64,000 nucleotides of DNA, from contig NZ_JACVXA010000004.1 of assembly GCF_014903745.1 (NCBI RefSeq), positions 62,001 through 126,000 of the forward strand, written 5' to 3'. The notes under the pieces were generated by a model that saw nothing but the letters and a program-made list of their open reading frames with translations, was not told the origin of the DNA and ran no database searches. This stretch comes from Mangrovicoccus algicola (lineage in GTDB: Bacteria; Pseudomonadota; Alphaproteobacteria; Rhodobacterales; Rhodobacteraceae). The position numbers and the translations under genes were made by a program. Positions 38,934 through 43,683 of this stretch are shown in pieces; the stretch's first letter is position 1; each line of letters begins with the position of its first letter.

Positions 38934-39084
38934 CGCCAATTTCCTTCTGAGCCGTGAAGAGGCCGGTTATCCGGCCCCCGCAGAGGCTTAGCACATGATC
39001 GCCCGGGGGCAAGCGGGGCAAGGCGCCGCCTGCGCGGCGGGCAGATGACGCAATCGTGAGGCGTCGTGCATCTTTTGCTTTCTC

Positions 39085-39113
39085 CCGAAGCGGTCCTGTC
39101 GCATAGTCTTCGG
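39085..39113. promoter_or_regulatory. Inverted repeat ahead of the second LuxR-type gene
   Basis: CCGAAG (39085-39090) and CTTCGG (39108-39113) form a spaced dyad in the tpiA/LuxR divergent region, 40 bp before the TTG start. It could be an operator. The arms are short, so confidence is low. Confidence 0.3.
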
Positions 39114-39152
39114 CAGCGGATTATTGCCGATTGTTATTTTCAGGAGGAGCCA

Positions 39153-39905
39153 TTGAGCGTACGTGAGAGATTCGCGCATCTATTGATAGACACGGCGGGC
39201 CGTCTGGCAGGCGCGCCGGACGAAGACACGCGCTGGCAGGTGATCACGGATATTTGCGGCAGCCTCGGCGCGACGTCGGTGAATTCGGCCGGTTTCGTCG
39301 AGCGGGGCGGACAGATGGCCTGGATGCGCAGCACCATTCCCCGCAGCTGGATGGAAGAGTACCACGAGTCCGGGCTGGGCGATGTCGATGCCATCCTCGC
39401 GATGGCGCGGCGCGGACGGCTGCCGGCGGTGCTGGACATGCGGCGCTTGCCGTCCTTCGGCCGGGATGCGGTCCGGCGGACGCAGCTGGACGCGCTCCGC
39501 GAGGGGTCCGGGATGCGCTATTGCCTGGCCGCGACCAGCAGTTCCGGCGGGTTGCGGCGCATGCTGGCCATCACCACCAGCGACGATCCGCGGGACATAT
39601 TCGGCAAGGGCGCGGCCCGGGCCTTCGCCACGATCGGAACGCTGCTGTCGATGCAGCTTTCGGCGCCGCGCGTCGGGGATACCGCCGACCTGTTCGGCGG
39701 CACCGCGCCGCGTCCCGCCGAGGAGGACCTGCGCATCCTGCGCGCCATGGCGGGGGGGCGGGGATTGCTGGCCGTGTCCGCCGGGCTGGGAATGGGGCCG
39801 GGGGATTTGCGTCTGAGGCTTCGCGAGATCTGCGCGAAGCTGCAGGTTTCCACCCATGAGGAGGCGCTGGAGATGGCCCAGGCCAGGGGGCTGCTGCAGG
39901 CCTGA
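39153..39905 (+). CDS. LuxR-like regulator with autoinducer-type domain and degenerate helix-turn-helix
   Basis: A 250-residue protein with the same layout as the receptor at 16.1 kb. Trp66, Tyr70 and Asp79 keep the ligand-contact spacing, but the usual Pro is Ala80. The C-terminal region (PAEEDLRILRAMAGGRGLLA to EICAKLQVSTHEEALEMA) keeps the LuxR helix pattern. It has lost the T-V-K-x-H recognition signature, so DNA binding may be altered. The start is TTG 39153, directly after AGGAGGAG; the upstream ATG at 39066 has no SD. No luxI is near. Confidence 0.75.
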   Translation: MSVRERFAHLLIDTAGRLAGAPDEDTRWQVITDICGSLGATSVNSAGFVERGGQMAWMRSTIPRSWMEEYHESGLGDVDAILAMARRGRLPAVLDMRRLPSFGRDAVRRTQLDALREGSGMRYCLAATSSSGGLRRMLAITTSDDPRDIFGKGAARAFATIGTLLSMQLSAPRVGDTADLFGGTAPRPAEEDLRILRAMAGGRGLLAVSAGLGMGPGDLRLRLREICAKLQVSTHEEALEMAQARGLLQA

Positions 39906-39925: not shown

Positions 39926-40285
39926 TCAGCCCTGCGGGGGTTCGGCGAATTTGATCGATTCGCCGCAGCCGCAGGCATCCACGACATTGGGATTGCGGAA
40001 CTTGAACCCCGCTTCCAGCAGGGACACCTCGTAATCGATCTCGGTGCCGAAGAGGAACATCTGTGCCATCGGCGCGATCATCACGCGGGCCCCGTCCTGT
40101 TCCACCACCTCGTCCATCGGGTTCACCTCCGAGACGTATTCCATGGTGTATTCCATCCCCGCGCAGCCGCCCTTCTTGACGCCGATGCGCAGCCCCTGGC
40201 TGGCATCCTTCGTCATCAGGCGGCTGATCTGCCTTGCAGCTGCCGGGGTGAGGGTCACGGCCTGCTTGCCGGGAATTGCGAACAT
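39926..40285 (-). CDS. A-type iron-sulfur carrier (ErpA/IscA/SufA family)
   Basis: A 119-residue protein that holds and transfers nascent Fe-S clusters. The three family cysteines are present: GGCAGMEY and the C-terminal ACGCGES. The 119-residue length and the insert MDEVVEQDGARVMIAP fit the HesB family. ATG 40285 has AGGAG upstream. A MIP18-family assembly factor gene lies 1.5 kb away on the same strand, with the DUF3307/SatD-like pair between them. Confidence 0.93.
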   Translation of the reverse strand: MFAIPGKQAVTLTPAAARQISRLMTKDASQGLRIGVKKGGCAGMEYTMEYVSEVNPMDEVVEQDGARVMIAPMAQMFLFGTEIDYEVSLLEAGFKFRNPNVVDACGCGESIKFAEPPQG

Positions 40286-40357
40286 GGTGGGCTCCTGACT
40301 TGAAGTCCAAAGATAAGGGAGCGGGGCGGCCAACTCAAGGGTGCGCGGGCGGGGCGC

Positions 40358-41107
40358 TCAGGGGGAGAGCAGCCCGGGCAGGCCCTCGGGCTGCAGCGCC
40401 AGGATCAGCATCCGCGTGGCCAGCCCGGTCATCACCGCCCAGCCCACGGAAGCCAGCGTGCCGATGATGACATATTCGGCCAGCTTGCGGCTTTTCTGAG
40501 CGTCCGAGAAGCGCAGCACCGATTTCGCCGCCACGAGGATCGCCAGCCCGGCCACCGTGCCGGTCAGCACCGAAACGAAGGCCAGCGCGCGTTCGATCTG
40601 GCCGATCGTGGCGCCCGCGCCCTTGAGGCCGCCGCCATTGACCTGGGCGCGCAGGCTCCAGTCGCGCGCCAGAAGCGGCGCGATCACAAGCTGCACCGCG
40701 ATGCCGCCCGCGCGGGTGGCAAAGAGCAGCCCGGCCGCCAGCGCCATCAGCGCGGGGGCGGGTGCGGGCAGCAGACCCGCCCAGATCCCGTCCTCCCACC
40801 CCGCGGCGAAGAGGGGCGGCAGCACGAAGATCGCGGCCAGGTGGACGCCCTGGTCGGCGGCATAGCTGCGCAACCCGCCCTTGCCCAACCGCGTCTTGGC
40901 AGCGTCCGTGGCGACATGCAGGAGCGTGACGGCAAGAACCAGCGGCAGCGCAGCGAATCCCAGCGCGATCCATGCGGTGGCGAAGACGATCGCGCCATGC
41001 AGGGCCAGGACATGCGGACGCCGCTTGTTGGCGACGATCCAGTCGCTCTGGAAGGCATAATCCGCAAGCACATGCGCCAGCAGGAGCGCGGCGGAGGTTT
41101 CTGGCAT
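40358..41107 (-). CDS. DUF3307 membrane protein
   Basis: A 249-residue polytopic inner-membrane protein. It opens with the DUF3307 signature LLLAHVLADYAFQSDWIVANK, followed by an H-G-A-I-V helix, LLHVATDAAK and three more hydrophobic segments. DUF3307 genes often lie next to SatD-like genes, as here; the function is unknown. ATG 41107 is preceded by GGGGAGC. A TTG at 41134 is rejected because it would place coding sequence over the tandem repeats at 41131-41179. Those repeats form its own upstream control region. Confidence 0.82.
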   Translation of the reverse strand: MPETSAALLLAHVLADYAFQSDWIVANKRRPHVLALHGAIVFATAWIALGFAALPLVLAVTLLHVATDAAKTRLGKGGLRSYAADQGVHLAAIFVLPPLFAAGWEDGIWAGLLPAPAPALMALAAGLLFATRAGGIAVQLVIAPLLARDWSLRAQVNGGGLKGAGATIGQIERALAFVSVLTGTVAGLAILVAAKSVLRFSDAQKSRKLAEYVIIGTLASVGWAVMTGLATRMLILALQPEGLPGLLSP

Positions 41108-41130
41108 GGGGGCTCCCCGATCCGGGATAA

Positions 41131-41179
41131 ACAAGCGGTATGATTTGTAATGCTAAAAACAAGCGCTGCGGTTTGTAAT
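41131..41179. promoter_or_regulatory. Tandem 21-bp operator-like repeats between the SatD-like and DUF3307 genes
   Basis: Two copies of ACAAGCG-N6-TTTGTAAT (41131-41151 and 41159-41179) repeat with a 28-bp period and agree at 17 of 21 positions. Each copy contains a dyad ACAA...TTGT. They are AT-rich in GC-rich DNA and lie directly upstream of the DUF3307 start. The helix-turn-helix of the neighbouring SatD-like protein is the natural candidate to bind them. Confidence 0.65.
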
Positions 41180-41197
41180 TGAAAATACCGGACGCGG

Positions 41198-41833
41198 TCA
41201 GAGCGGGCGGGTTTCCGCCCAGCCCAGGGTGTCTTCTATCGCGCGGAACCCGGCCAGGTCCAGCCGGTCCTGCACTGCCTGCTGGGTCAGGCCGAGGGCG
41301 GCGCCGATCTCCGCCTGGGTGGGGGGGGCCGGGGCGAGGGCGGCGGCCACCGCCTCGGCCTGGGCGGCGCTCCAGCGGGCGGAGAGCGCGTCGATCAGCG
41401 CCGCCATCTCGGGCAGGCCCGCCGGGGCATCCTGGGGGGCCACGGCCAGCCTGCGACGGCGCGGCAGCGCATCCAGAAGGCGCCCGGCATGGCGGAAGGC
41501 AGGGCCGTCGGCATCGGAGAGGTCGCGGCTGCCGGGGTGGTCTATGCCGCCATAGCCCAGCACGATGCGCGTCGCGGGCAGGTCCTCTGCCACGCGGAAC
41601 CTCGCCCTGAGCAGCAGGGCAGCGCGCAGCCCCAGCGTGCCGGGCAGGATCAGCGCCTGCCATCCATCGCCGCGGAACCGGGTCAGGCGGGCCGGGGTGC
41701 CGGTCCAGTCGGCGACGGTGGCGAAGCAGTCATCCAGCAGCGCGAAGGCGGCCCCCACGGCATCCGGCCCGGCGCGGACGGATCCGACCAGGTCGCCGCA
41801 GAGCACCGCGCCTTGCGCCGCATCCGCTGTCAC
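41198..41833 (-). CDS. SatD-like protein: divergent palm-type domain plus helix-turn-helix
   Basis: A 211-residue protein. The N-terminal half matches the SatD pattern, with acidic motifs LCGDLVGSV (Asp14) and RFRGDGWQAL (Asp56). These resemble the paired metal-binding aspartates of nucleotide cyclase/GGDEF palm domains. The C-terminus (TQAEIGAALGLTQQAVQDRL, about 172-191) is a helix-turn-helix. The start at 41833 overlaps the MIP18-family stop by 4 bp. Partnered with the membrane protein DUF3307, it may be a signalling or stress module. The enzymatic reading is inference. Confidence 0.7.
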   Translation of the reverse strand: MTADAAQGAVLCGDLVGSVRAGPDAVGAAFALLDDCFATVADWTGTPARLTRFRGDGWQALILPGTLGLRAALLLRARFRVAEDLPATRIVLGYGGIDHPGSRDLSDADGPAFRHAGRLLDALPRRRRLAVAPQDAPAGLPEMAALIDALSARWSAAQAEAVAAALAPAPPTQAEIGAALGLTQQAVQDRLDLAGFRAIEDTLGWAETRPL

Positions 41834-42195
41834 ATGAAGCCCAGTTCCAGCCGCGCCTCGTCGGACATCATCTCCATCCCCCAGGGCGGGTTCCAGGTCA
41901 GGTCGACATTGACGCTTTTCACGCCGGGCAGGGGTTCGACGGCATCCGCGACCCAGCCGGGCATGTCGCCCGCGACCGGGCAGCCCGGCGCCGTCAGGGT
42001 CATGATGATGTTGACCTCGTTCTCGTCGTTGATCTCGACCGTGTAGACCAGGCCCAGATCGTAGATGTTCACCGGGATCTCGGGGTCGTAGACGCTGCGG
42101 CAGGCCTCCACCACCGCCTCGTGAAGCGGGTGTTCGGTGGAAGACGGCTTGATCAGCGGCGCTCCCTCGATGTCGGAGCTTTCGGTCAGGGACAT
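41830..42195 (-). CDS. MIP18/DUF59-family Fe-S assembly protein (SufT-like)
   Basis: A 121-residue protein involved in Fe-S cluster maturation. Family motifs are DPEIPVNIYDLGLVY and TAPGCPVAGDMPGWV (conserved Cys), ending NPPWGMEMMSDEARLELG. ATG 42195 has GAGGAA upstream. It is the first gene of a run coupled by ATGA overlap to the SatD-like gene. An A-type carrier lies downstream on the same strand, so this locus probably represents a detached part of a suf-type gene set. Confidence 0.92.
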   Translation of the reverse strand: MSLTESSDIEGAPLIKPSSTEHPLHEAVVEACRSVYDPEIPVNIYDLGLVYTVEINDENEVNIIMTLTAPGCPVAGDMPGWVADAVEPLPGVKSVNVDLTWNPPWGMEMMSDEARLELGFM

Positions 42196-42267
42196 GCAGG
42201 TTCCTCGCGTTTCGCCCGGAAATATAGGGGACAAGCGGCCGCGCGTCCAGACGGGCGGCCCGCCGGC

Positions 42268-43683
42268 TCAGTCCTTGGGGACGGTCGCGCTGCGGCGTAC
42301 CGGGGCGGGGCGGACGCGCTTCTCGATATCCTGGTACAGCGTCTCGACGATGTTCTTGCCGGTCGCCTTCTCGATCCCCTCGAAGCCGGGCGAGGAATTG
42401 ACCTCCAGGACCTTCGGCCCGTCATTCGAGCGCAGGATATCCACCCCCGCCATGTTCAGCCGGAAGGCCTTGGCGGCGCGGATGGCGATGTCGCGCTCCT
42501 CGCGGGTGATGCGCACCATCTTGGCGGTGCCGCCCTGGTGCAGATTGGAGCGGAACTCGCCCTCGCTGGCCGAGCGTTTCATCGCCGCCACCACCTTGCC
42601 CGAGATCACCAGGCATCGCACATCCTCGCCCGCGGCTTCCTTGACGAATTGCTGCACCAGGAAATTCGCCTTGAGCCCGCGGAAGGCCGAGATCACCGAT
42701 TCCGCCGCCTTGCGCGTCTCGGCCAGGACGACGCCCTTGCCCTGCGTCGATTCCAGCAGCTTCACGATCAGGGGCGCATTGCCCACCAGCTCGATCAGGT
42801 GCTGCGTGTCCTTGGGCGAGGAGGCGAAGGCGGTGACCGGCATGTTGATGCGGTGGCGCGCCAGAACCTGATGGGCGTGCAGCTTGTCGCGGCTTGCGGT
42901 GATCCCGTCGGCGGGGTTCACGCAATAGGTGCCCACCGTCTCGAACTGGCGGATCACGGCGGTGCCATAGGGGGTGATCGACGCGCCGATGCGCGGGATC
43001 ACGGCGTCATAGCGCGGCAGGCGGTTGCCGTCGTAATGCACTTCGGGACTGTCGGCATTGATCGCCATGTAGCACAGCGAGGTATCGATCACCTCGACGA
43101 CATGGCCGCGATTCTCGCCCTCGGCGACGATGCGGCTGGTCGTGTAGTTCTTGGGTTCGCGGCTGAGCACGGCGACGCGCAGCGTGCGCCGCGGCGCGTG
43201 GGTGCGCACATCCGCCGTGTGGTAGACGTCATAGCTGAGTTCCGGCTGGCAGCAGCGATCCGCGGCGGCGACCAGCATGTCATCCATCAGCGCCTGCCGC
43301 CCCAGCAGCATGCGATAGGCCATGGCGCCGCGATTGGTCAGCGTGACCTCGATGGGCCAGGACCGGTTGCCCATATGCACCTCGGTGCGGATGACATAGC
43401 GCAGCTCCATGTCGCCATTGGAGGATGTCACCTCGCGGCGGTCGACAATGGGGGCCGAGCAGGGGATCGACAGCTCGTCGCGCCCGGGGATCGGATGCAC
43501 GCCGAAGCGGACCTTGGGCCGGTTGATCGGGCCGAAGGGTTCGATGTCGAAGGCGTGCAGCGCCGAGGTCCGCGCGCCGGTATCCACCTTGGCCTTGAGC
43601 GCCGGAAGTCCCAGCGAGGGCAGGGAGAGCCATTCCTCCCAGCCAAGCCGGAAATCCGTCTGATCGGTGCTGCTGTCGGTCAT
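42268..43683 (-). CDS. RimB-RimK fusion: zinc/aspartyl-type protease domain plus ATP-grasp glutamate ligase
   Basis: A 471-residue fusion. Residues about 10-150 form the retropepsin-like RimB/ATP-dependent zinc protease domain (KAKVDTGARTSALHA). Residues about 168-455 form the RimK ATP-grasp ligase (VLSREPKNYTTSRIVAEGEN; VKLLESTQGKGVVLAET; GVDILRSNDGPKVLEVNSSP). In E. coli RimK adds glutamates to ribosomal protein S6 and RimB regulates or trims this. The fusion places both activities in one chain. The target here is presumed, not shown. Confidence 0.9.
   Translation of the reverse strand: MTDSSTDQTDFRLGWEEWLSLPSLGLPALKAKVDTGARTSALHAFDIEPFGPINRPKVRFGVHPIPGRDELSIPCSAPIVDRREVTSSNGDMELRYVIRTEVHMGNRSWPIEVTLTNRGAMAYRMLLGRQALMDDMLVAAADRCCQPELSYDVYHTADVRTHAPRRTLRVAVLSREPKNYTTSRIVAEGENRGHVVEVIDTSLCYMAINADSPEVHYDGNRLPRYDAVIPRIGASITPYGTAVIRQFETVGTYCVNPADGITASRDKLHAHQVLARHRINMPVTAFASSPKDTQHLIELVGNAPLIVKLLESTQGKGVVLAETRKAAESVISAFRGLKANFLVQQFVKEAAGEDVRCLVISGKVVAAMKRSASEGEFRSNLHQGGTAKMVRITREERDIAIRAAKAFRLNMAGVDILRSNDGPKVLEVNSSPGFEGIEKATGKNIVETLYQDIEKRVRPAPVRRSATVPKD

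Follow-up and report, generated by a model that had tools for sequence, protein, structure and literature searches.

A SatD-like protein with a cyclase-type fold and its membrane partner form a two-gene module with a predicted self-operator

Introduction

What might a small protein that joins a nucleotide-cyclase-like palm to a helix-turn-helix (HTH) be doing beside a membrane protein and a set of tandem dyads? The question is raised by a locus in the 64,000-nucleotide stretch of Mangrovicoccus algicola DNA analysed here (the window), for which an original prediction had proposed a possible nucleotide-producing sensor, a membrane partner and an autoregulatory operator on the plan of small signalling or defence modules. 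An answer provides a testable role for the protein family of SatD, which is without a mechanism in the literature searched.

Results

Genomic organization of the locus

The minus strand reads, in order, an Fe-S assembly gene, the SatD-like gene, a 90-nt gap, the DUF3307 gene and a SufA-type gene, with the first and last as neighbours outside the module:

41830-42234, minus strand: SUF-associated Fe-S assembly protein gene (TIGR02945, 151.2 bits against a cut-off of 143.4)
41198-41833, minus strand: SatD-like gene, an open reading frame of 211 aa with a GTG start, encoding a cyclase-fold domain and an HTH
40358-41107, minus strand: DUF3307 membrane gene, 249 aa from its ATG, encoding an N-terminal DUF3307 domain and a C-terminal SatD-partner module
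39926-40333, minus strand: downstream SufA-type gene (TIGR00049, 113.3 bits against a cut-off of 58.8)

The SufA-type gene does not reach the cut-off of TIGR01997, the SufA equivalog. The GTG start of the SatD-like gene lies over the TGA stop of the Fe-S gene, so that the overlap proposed originally exists but reads GTGA, not ATGA; likewise, the span first given to the module, 41107-41833, begins at the DUF3307 start codon, whereas the module includes the entire DUF3307 gene and reaches 40358. The downstream gene is a DUF3307 gene as predicted (Pfam PF11750, E 6.7e-12; 46 bits against a curated cut-off of 23). Further out, positions 42268-43683 encode a RimK-type ATP-grasp protein with a putative N-terminal Zn_protease domain (Pfam PF05618, PF18030, PF08443), and the protein encoded at 39066-39905 carries a sub-threshold autoinducer-binding domain match, with no clear LuxR-type HTH in Pfam.

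Fold and catalytic residues of the SatD-like protein

The predicted C-terminal HTH and both aspartate motifs, GDLVGS (D14) and FRGDGW (D56), are present in the SatD-like protein:

41381-41833, minus strand: class III nucleotide cyclase-like palm, residues 1-151, by Foldseek and VIA-align matches
41792-41794 and 41666-41668, minus strand: codons of D14 and D56 in the palm
41255-41284, minus strand: HTH recognition helix, residues 184-193, a helix in the model

Its structural model (mean pLDDT 96.8) matched 17 PDB chains at E <= 0.001 in Foldseek, all of them nucleotide cyclases (best E 9.7e-5) and the cUMP synthase 7r65 among them. The best VIA-align superposition reached a Z of 11.3 with an rmsd of 3.1 over 140 residues, and among the matches listed 49 of 50 rows were class III cyclases, the remaining one being a GGDEF domain at row 43 with a Z of 9.7, 1.6 under the best cyclase. 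Comparison of the predicted structure with the PDB thus gives a class III cyclase fold rather than an unrelated one, in agreement with the proposed cyclase-type palm. A PDB sequence search with the single SatD-like protein returned nothing at E <= 1, and the profile of alignment A3 (77 loci, the window included) found the class III cyclase Ma1120 at an E of 0.079, which is weak alone, with HTH domains scoring better. This weak profile alignment pairs R52 with the substrate lysine and places D14 and D56 at the two metal-ligand aspartates of class III cyclases.

Conservation was read from several alignments. In A1, whose 17 rows (window protein included, L015 excluded) were found without the motif, D14, R52, G55, D56, G57 and W58 are invariant in 17/17 rows; D14 and D56 are kept in 77/77 rows of A3, where the stretch 51-58 is invariant by construction, being the search pattern. 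Both metal aspartates are invariant in A5 as well, an alignment of eight rows of which five score over the cut-off of the Pfam SatD model PF16264, and in the translations of L143-L149. At position 114, which with position 118 we take from the class III cyclase motif to be the equivalent of the transition-state Asn and Arg (as we take R52 to be the substrate-lysine position), Asn occurs in none of the 77 A3 rows or the 17 of A1, and Arg at 118 in 40/77 and 11/17, respectively, both positions having been set by eye from motif spacing. Because the catalytic Asn is absent and Arg 118 is not conserved, the label "nucleotide-producing" is not supported.

The name "SatD-like" holds in one respect and fails in another: the window protein itself has no match to PF16264 at E <= 1, and the model has no match in its genome, but profile comparison by hhalign of A3 against A5 gives full-length homology (probability 99.9, E 4.2e-32, 205 columns). 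Five of the 77 relatives match PF16264 at E <= 0.1 (best 7.7e-5). With an input domain and a DNA-binding domain in one chain, the protein is built as a one-component transcription regulator is.

Distribution and neighbourhood

Of 147 genomes searched with the whole protein, 20 gave relatives. The window's family, with 90 genomes, supplied 19 of these, and the 20th is a weak partial match. The 19 family loci match the Fe-S protein in 19 cases, DUF3307 in 17 and SufA in 16; L014 sits at a contig end, G001 has a split locus and L018 is without SufA, which accounts for the misses. In the split case (L006 and L021), a genome of the same genus, SatD-like residues 7-101 lie inside one contig (C7), while residues 161-208 and a partial DUF3307 lie near the end of another (C8), by rearrangement or assembly error.

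As the whole alignment has no stretch conserved enough for a genome scan, a smaller alignment (A2) was used, and its pattern TRFRGDGW gave 93 confirmed loci, of which 80 were taken. These 80 are mostly labelled Rhodobacteraceae or its genera, with three labelled Gemmatimonadetes or Gemmatimonadales (L058, L061, L063). The latter contigs carry SatD, DUF3307 and GCAAG dyads and are without the Fe-S gene or SufA; they reflect either lateral transfer or misbinned contigs. The Fe-S gene was not found in L058, L060, L061 and L063 and lies some kilobases off in roughly ten more loci, so the slot, though common, is not universal. Fifteen family genomes without a SatD match all keep the Fe-S gene, and in these SufA starts within ~120 nt of it in eight, further away in four, and was not found in three.

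Beyond the family, Pfam SatD matches occur in 8/398 genomes of the phylum, five of them over the cut-off, but in 0/14 control genomes; in another class, the SatD profile matches 15/369, among them three repeat genomes of the phylum set and five short, weak matches. The SatD module is accordingly present in several proteobacterial groups. In tblastn searches with the Fe-S and SufA proteins, nothing was found at the 15 well-scoring outer SatD loci (L132-L139 and L143-L149, 2.4-3.6 kb each); the Fe-S neighbourhood is a trait of the window's family.

Neither 72,556 plasmid records nor 50,697 phage records yielded a relative by tblastn at E <= 0.001, 13 pattern matches in viral contigs included no relative, and PADLOC, which covers known systems, assigned both proteins to 0 families. 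Because PADLOC gives no match and the plasmid and phage records hold no relatives, the likeness to defence modules proposed originally is not supported, and on the same results the defence and mobile-element readings were set aside.

The constant membrane partner

The membrane partner carries, at its C-terminus, a segment distinct from DUF3307:

40400-40636, minus strand: C-terminal membrane module of the DUF3307 protein, residues 158-236, by hhalign and HMM

The model of the DUF3307 protein (pLDDT 94.5) finds no clear relative in the PDB: the best Foldseek E is 1.7, and the best VIA Z, 6.8, lies under the tool's meaningful level for helical models. In alignment A4 the DUF3307 part has invariant H12, D16, H37, H64, D68, K71, D85 and H89, and the C-terminal part invariant E172, R173, K195, S196, R199, E211, Y212, G216, T217 and S220, the latter in the motif IGxxER...AAKSxxRF...AEYxxIGTLxS.

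The survey of SatD-DUF3307 pairs bears out a constant membrane partner: DUF3307 matches downstream of SatD in 80/80 loci (80 of the 93 confirmed), and an HMM of the C-terminal module matches all 15 outer loci at E 2.8e-11 or better. Window-family partners and partners without DUF3307 align by hhalign with a probability of 99.0 (E 3.4e-18, 78 columns). An HMM of the DUF3307 part matches 7/15 outer loci; the DUF3307 domain was therefore rejected as the constant SatD partner in favour of the unnamed C-terminal membrane module. Of five outer partners, four gave nothing in Pfam and the fifth a single dockerin match below threshold; no known cyclic-nucleotide receptor domain was reported by Pfam for these five or for the window's partner.

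The DUF3307 domain also occurs in other settings. That of the window matches the phage membrane-protein family phrog_2470 (E 1e-12), filed under morons and host takeover. In 14 of the 147 genomes, all without a SatD match, DUF3307 is found in frames of just 131-195 aa (L036, L037, L039, L040, L042 and others), which by length are without the C-terminal module; one genome (G010) has both kinds of DUF3307, and in another (G083), which has no SatD match, a long DUF3307 frame sits at the start of a contig.

Tandem dyads at the SatD operon

The gap between the two genes holds two 28-nt repeats, 41129-41156 and 41157-41184, which are 75% identical, each containing an 18-bp dyad built as 6+6+6:

41159-41176: predicted operator dyad 1, ACAAGCGCTGCGGTTTGT (minus strand ACAAACCGCAGCGCTTGT)
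41131-41148: predicted operator dyad 2, ACAAGCGGTATGATTTGT (minus strand ACAAATCATACCGCTTGT), 28 bp from dyad 1 and 23 nt before the DUF3307 start codon

Written as ACAAR-N8-YTTGT repeated after 28 bp, the pair pattern occurs with 0 mismatches at this single place in the 4.39 Mb genome; with up to 3 mismatches allowed the scan found it nowhere else, and the reversed control pattern had no match. The tandem repeats with internal dyads and a 28-bp period, as originally called, are confirmed. A promoter scan called no promoter-like site over the window operators.

Among the relatives, with the spacing left free between 22 and 40, the best dyad pair falls at 28 bp (17 loci) or 29 bp (51 loci) in 68/80 loci, and the spacing peak at 28/29 bp is absent from shuffles. 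With the spacing fixed at 28/29 bp, no base preference and significance set at P <= 0.02 over 100 dinucleotide shuffles, a significant pair is found in 72 of the 77 A3 loci (which exclude L068, a seeming copy of L067, and L105, L121 and L124, which have no clean full-length SatD frame) and in 9/12 further loci. Far from being missing in close relatives that keep both genes, the repeats accompany the pair. The same test on 120-nt stretches gives 63/74 upstream of SatD, compared with 1/75 upstream of the Fe-S gene, 2/80 inside SatD and 0/80 inside DUF3307. By sequence, namely by locus specificity, recurrence in relatives and control stretches, the dyads qualify as the candidate autoregulatory operator proposed at the outset, placed at its own operon.

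The array lies directly upstream of SatD in most relatives, where SatD and DUF3307 mostly abut or overlap; at the SatD-DUF3307 junction it is found in the window and in L062, L080, L098, L103, L115, L117, L130 and L131, and G023, G028 and G064 have pairs at both places. The 67 upstream arrays comprise two dyads in 24, three in 30, four in 11 and five in 2, hence three to five in 43/67, where dyads beyond the pair were counted without a shuffle control; in 40/67, 0-5 nt separate the end of the last dyad from the script-chosen start codon. Two loci, L108 and L065, have five dyads at a ~29-bp period upstream of SatD, like a tiny repeat array. The dinucleotide TA at dyad positions 9-10 is commoner in second than in first dyads (28/73 vs. 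6/73, p 2.4e-5) and in the last dyad (16/40 vs. 8/91), which would fit a -10 element in the last dyad, a -35 TTG in the preceding one and a nearly leaderless transcript.

Searched for at 29-bp spacing with as many as 2 mismatches, a GCAAG pair turned up in 10 of the 147 genomes; eight carry it at the SatD operon only, G077 and G125 elsewhere, and the reversed control pattern matches one of the 147. Dyads are also present at three loci without Fe-S neighbours (L058, L061, L063). Outside the window's family, the free-spacing scan gives mostly noise, so the spacing was fixed there at the family's 28/29 bp; a significant pair was then found at 7/15 SatD loci and not at the other eight, with nothing near significance at L132, L143, L144, L148 and L149.

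Covariation of the recognition helix with the half-site

For 73 loci with readable pairs (L080, L098, L114 and L117 dropped), 184 SatD columns were ranked by their association with the first base of the half-site. Residue 184 came first and residue 188 second, and the HTH columns as a group outrank the remaining ones (Mann-Whitney p 0.0037). Places three and four went to columns 139 and 140, neither of them in the HTH, which points to common descent. On re-reading, the pairs of L080, L098 and L117 overlap or adjoin the end of satD and fit the residue 184 rule, while L114 has one dyad and a half and was excluded from the resulting set of 87 loci.

In these 87 loci R184 goes with G at base 1, Q184 with A, and P, T, A or K184 with T, the last class having been defined post hoc, after the data were seen. 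The rule fits 82/87 (R-G 50, P-T 15, Q-A 10, T-T 3, A-T 3, K-T 1), with L073 (P, G), L128 and L129 (both Q, T) against it and ties at L065 and L095. Arg-guanine and Gln-adenine are familiar contacts; the window protein has Q184 and the half-site ACAA, where Q184 is predicted to read the A. Ser or Thr at 186 accompanies G at base 4 (CAG for CAA) in 5/5 cases, CAG occurring in no other locus, a rule noted before L080 and L098 were read; in L016, P185 accompanies GAAAG instead of GCAAG. The fit is 87/87 at base 4 and 86/86 at base 2, results that are favoured by the CAA-core bonus with which the pairs were mostly picked. When this bonus is removed, R-A (4) and R-T (2) also appear among those 71 A3 loci whose pair is significant and whose base is clear, the R-A assignments looking like a shifted register.

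The base 1 rule holds in 9/9 further loci with a significant pair. Outside the family it agrees with L133 (P, T), L137 (R, G) and L139 (Q, A) and is broken, in the register chosen by the scan, at L138 (R, T) and L147 (Q, T), with L134 (L, T) and L135 (V, T) carrying residues that it does not cover. On a tree of the palm domain the helix and operator traits change just 1 to 5 times each; all independent pairs with a differing residue go in the expected direction (about 2, 2, 2 and 1 for the four traits), too few for a sign test by trait to reach 0.05. The first column ranking looked overwhelming, and this tree control weakens the claim: as the independent changes are few, the match of helix to operator constitutes support, not proof.

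Discussion

The analysis establishes a real two-gene module. In one bacterial family it has a predicted self-operator, and its constant partner is found outside that family as well. Its computed features are a class III cyclase fold, invariant metal aspartates, the constant partner and dyads that are nearly confined to the locus and vary with the recognition helix. Taken together they make it probable, in our judgement, that the SatD-like protein is a dedicated self-regulating repressor with a cyclase-like front half, and that the regulated product is the adjacent membrane protein.

In the mechanism that we propose, an HTH dimer would bind each 18-bp dyad, with residue 184 likely contacting base 1 and residue 186 affecting base 4. 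At least two bound dimers would then cover the promoter, the TTG of one dyad serving as the putative -35 and the centre of the next as the -10, and would thereby turn the operon off. In the window the dyads lie between the two genes and would thus mainly control the DUF3307 gene, the SatD-like gene presumably being expressed with the Fe-S gene. More tentatively, the cyclase-like domain may no longer cyclise but bind a nucleotide or Mg-nucleotide at its dimer interface, the bound nucleotide might set the spacing of the two HTHs and so release the operator, and the membrane partner could act on, move or sense the same signal.

The same fold could instead belong to an active enzyme, making a cyclic or other nucleotide messenger that the membrane partner senses, with the HTH acting in operon feedback only. 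The class III fold with 7r65 among its matches would suit such an enzyme, as would metal aspartates that stay invariant in A1, A5 and L143-L149 and an R52 that occupies the position of the substrate lysine without variation in the family; yet neither alignment has Asn at position 114, Arg 118 is kept in about half of A3 and 11 rows of A1, and Pfam recognizes no cyclic-nucleotide receptor domain in the window's partner or the five outer ones, so that we hold active catalysis to be unlikely and prefer a repressor that senses a nucleotide or metal to a cyclase. The dyads might, alternatively, serve a different regulator as its operator or be a regulatory repeat of a general kind, the SatD HTH having some other role. 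The small number of independent helix-operator changes and the eight outer loci lacking a significant pair leave some room for this, but the dyads hardly occur outside the SatD locus, persist at L058, L061 and L063, where the Fe-S neighbours are missing, and vary with SatD residues 184 and 186, which makes it distinctly improbable.

Improbable in the extreme, finally, is a defence module of cyclase-like sensor and membrane effector as in Pycsar, the system in which we take the cUMP synthase 7r65 to have its role. That synthase has a fold in common with the SatD-like protein, a membrane gene adjoins, and presence is patchy (19 of 90 family genomes); against these stand the negative PADLOC, plasmid and phage searches, a chromosomal slot shared by most family members, and the combination of one constant membrane module with a self-operator. 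A bolder extension of the self-regulating repressor, which we regard as rather doubtful, would make SatD a widespread signalling class whose cyclase fold handles and possibly makes a nucleotide, which represses itself through the dyads and whose partner's C-terminal module is a receptor or exporter; if true, SatD and the membrane module would form a self-contained messenger circuit, not described in the literature searched.

SatD thereby gains a fold, a probable job as a self-repressor and a predicted binding site at almost all family loci examined, together with a readable helix-to-base rule and a constant partner that is an unnamed membrane module, not the DUF3307 domain. Should the cyclase-like half sense or make a nucleotide, it would represent a new type of input for bacterial transcription control. 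The SatD-family literature, in the parts seen, gives a context of acid tolerance or protein translocation and no regulator role; no open-licence title or abstract retrieved on SatD, cyclase-type repressors or the Streptococcus mutans sat genes describes SatD as a regulator, and DUF3307 appears in the open-licence texts, so far as seen, in a phage gene list and with no known mechanism.

Compared with known systems, the SatD-like protein shares with class III nucleotide cyclases such as Ma1120, Cya2 and OaPAC the fold and both metal aspartates, but differs from them in having no catalytic Asn, a nonconserved Arg, an Arg in place of the substrate Lys and an attached HTH. Actinobacterial cyclase-HTH fusions, for example the mycobacterial Rv0386, also combine a cyclase domain and an HTH in one chain, as larger proteins with an ATPase between the two; we know of no tandem self-operator or SatD partner among them. 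The window's membrane protein matches both DUF3307 (PF11750) and phrog_2470 and adds to them the C-terminal module. The SatD family (PF16264) itself has a Pfam model that does not match the window protein; the two have in common full-length profile homology, a GD at strand 1, a GD at the hairpin, a C-terminal HTH and, encoded next door, a membrane protein that carries the same C-terminal module.
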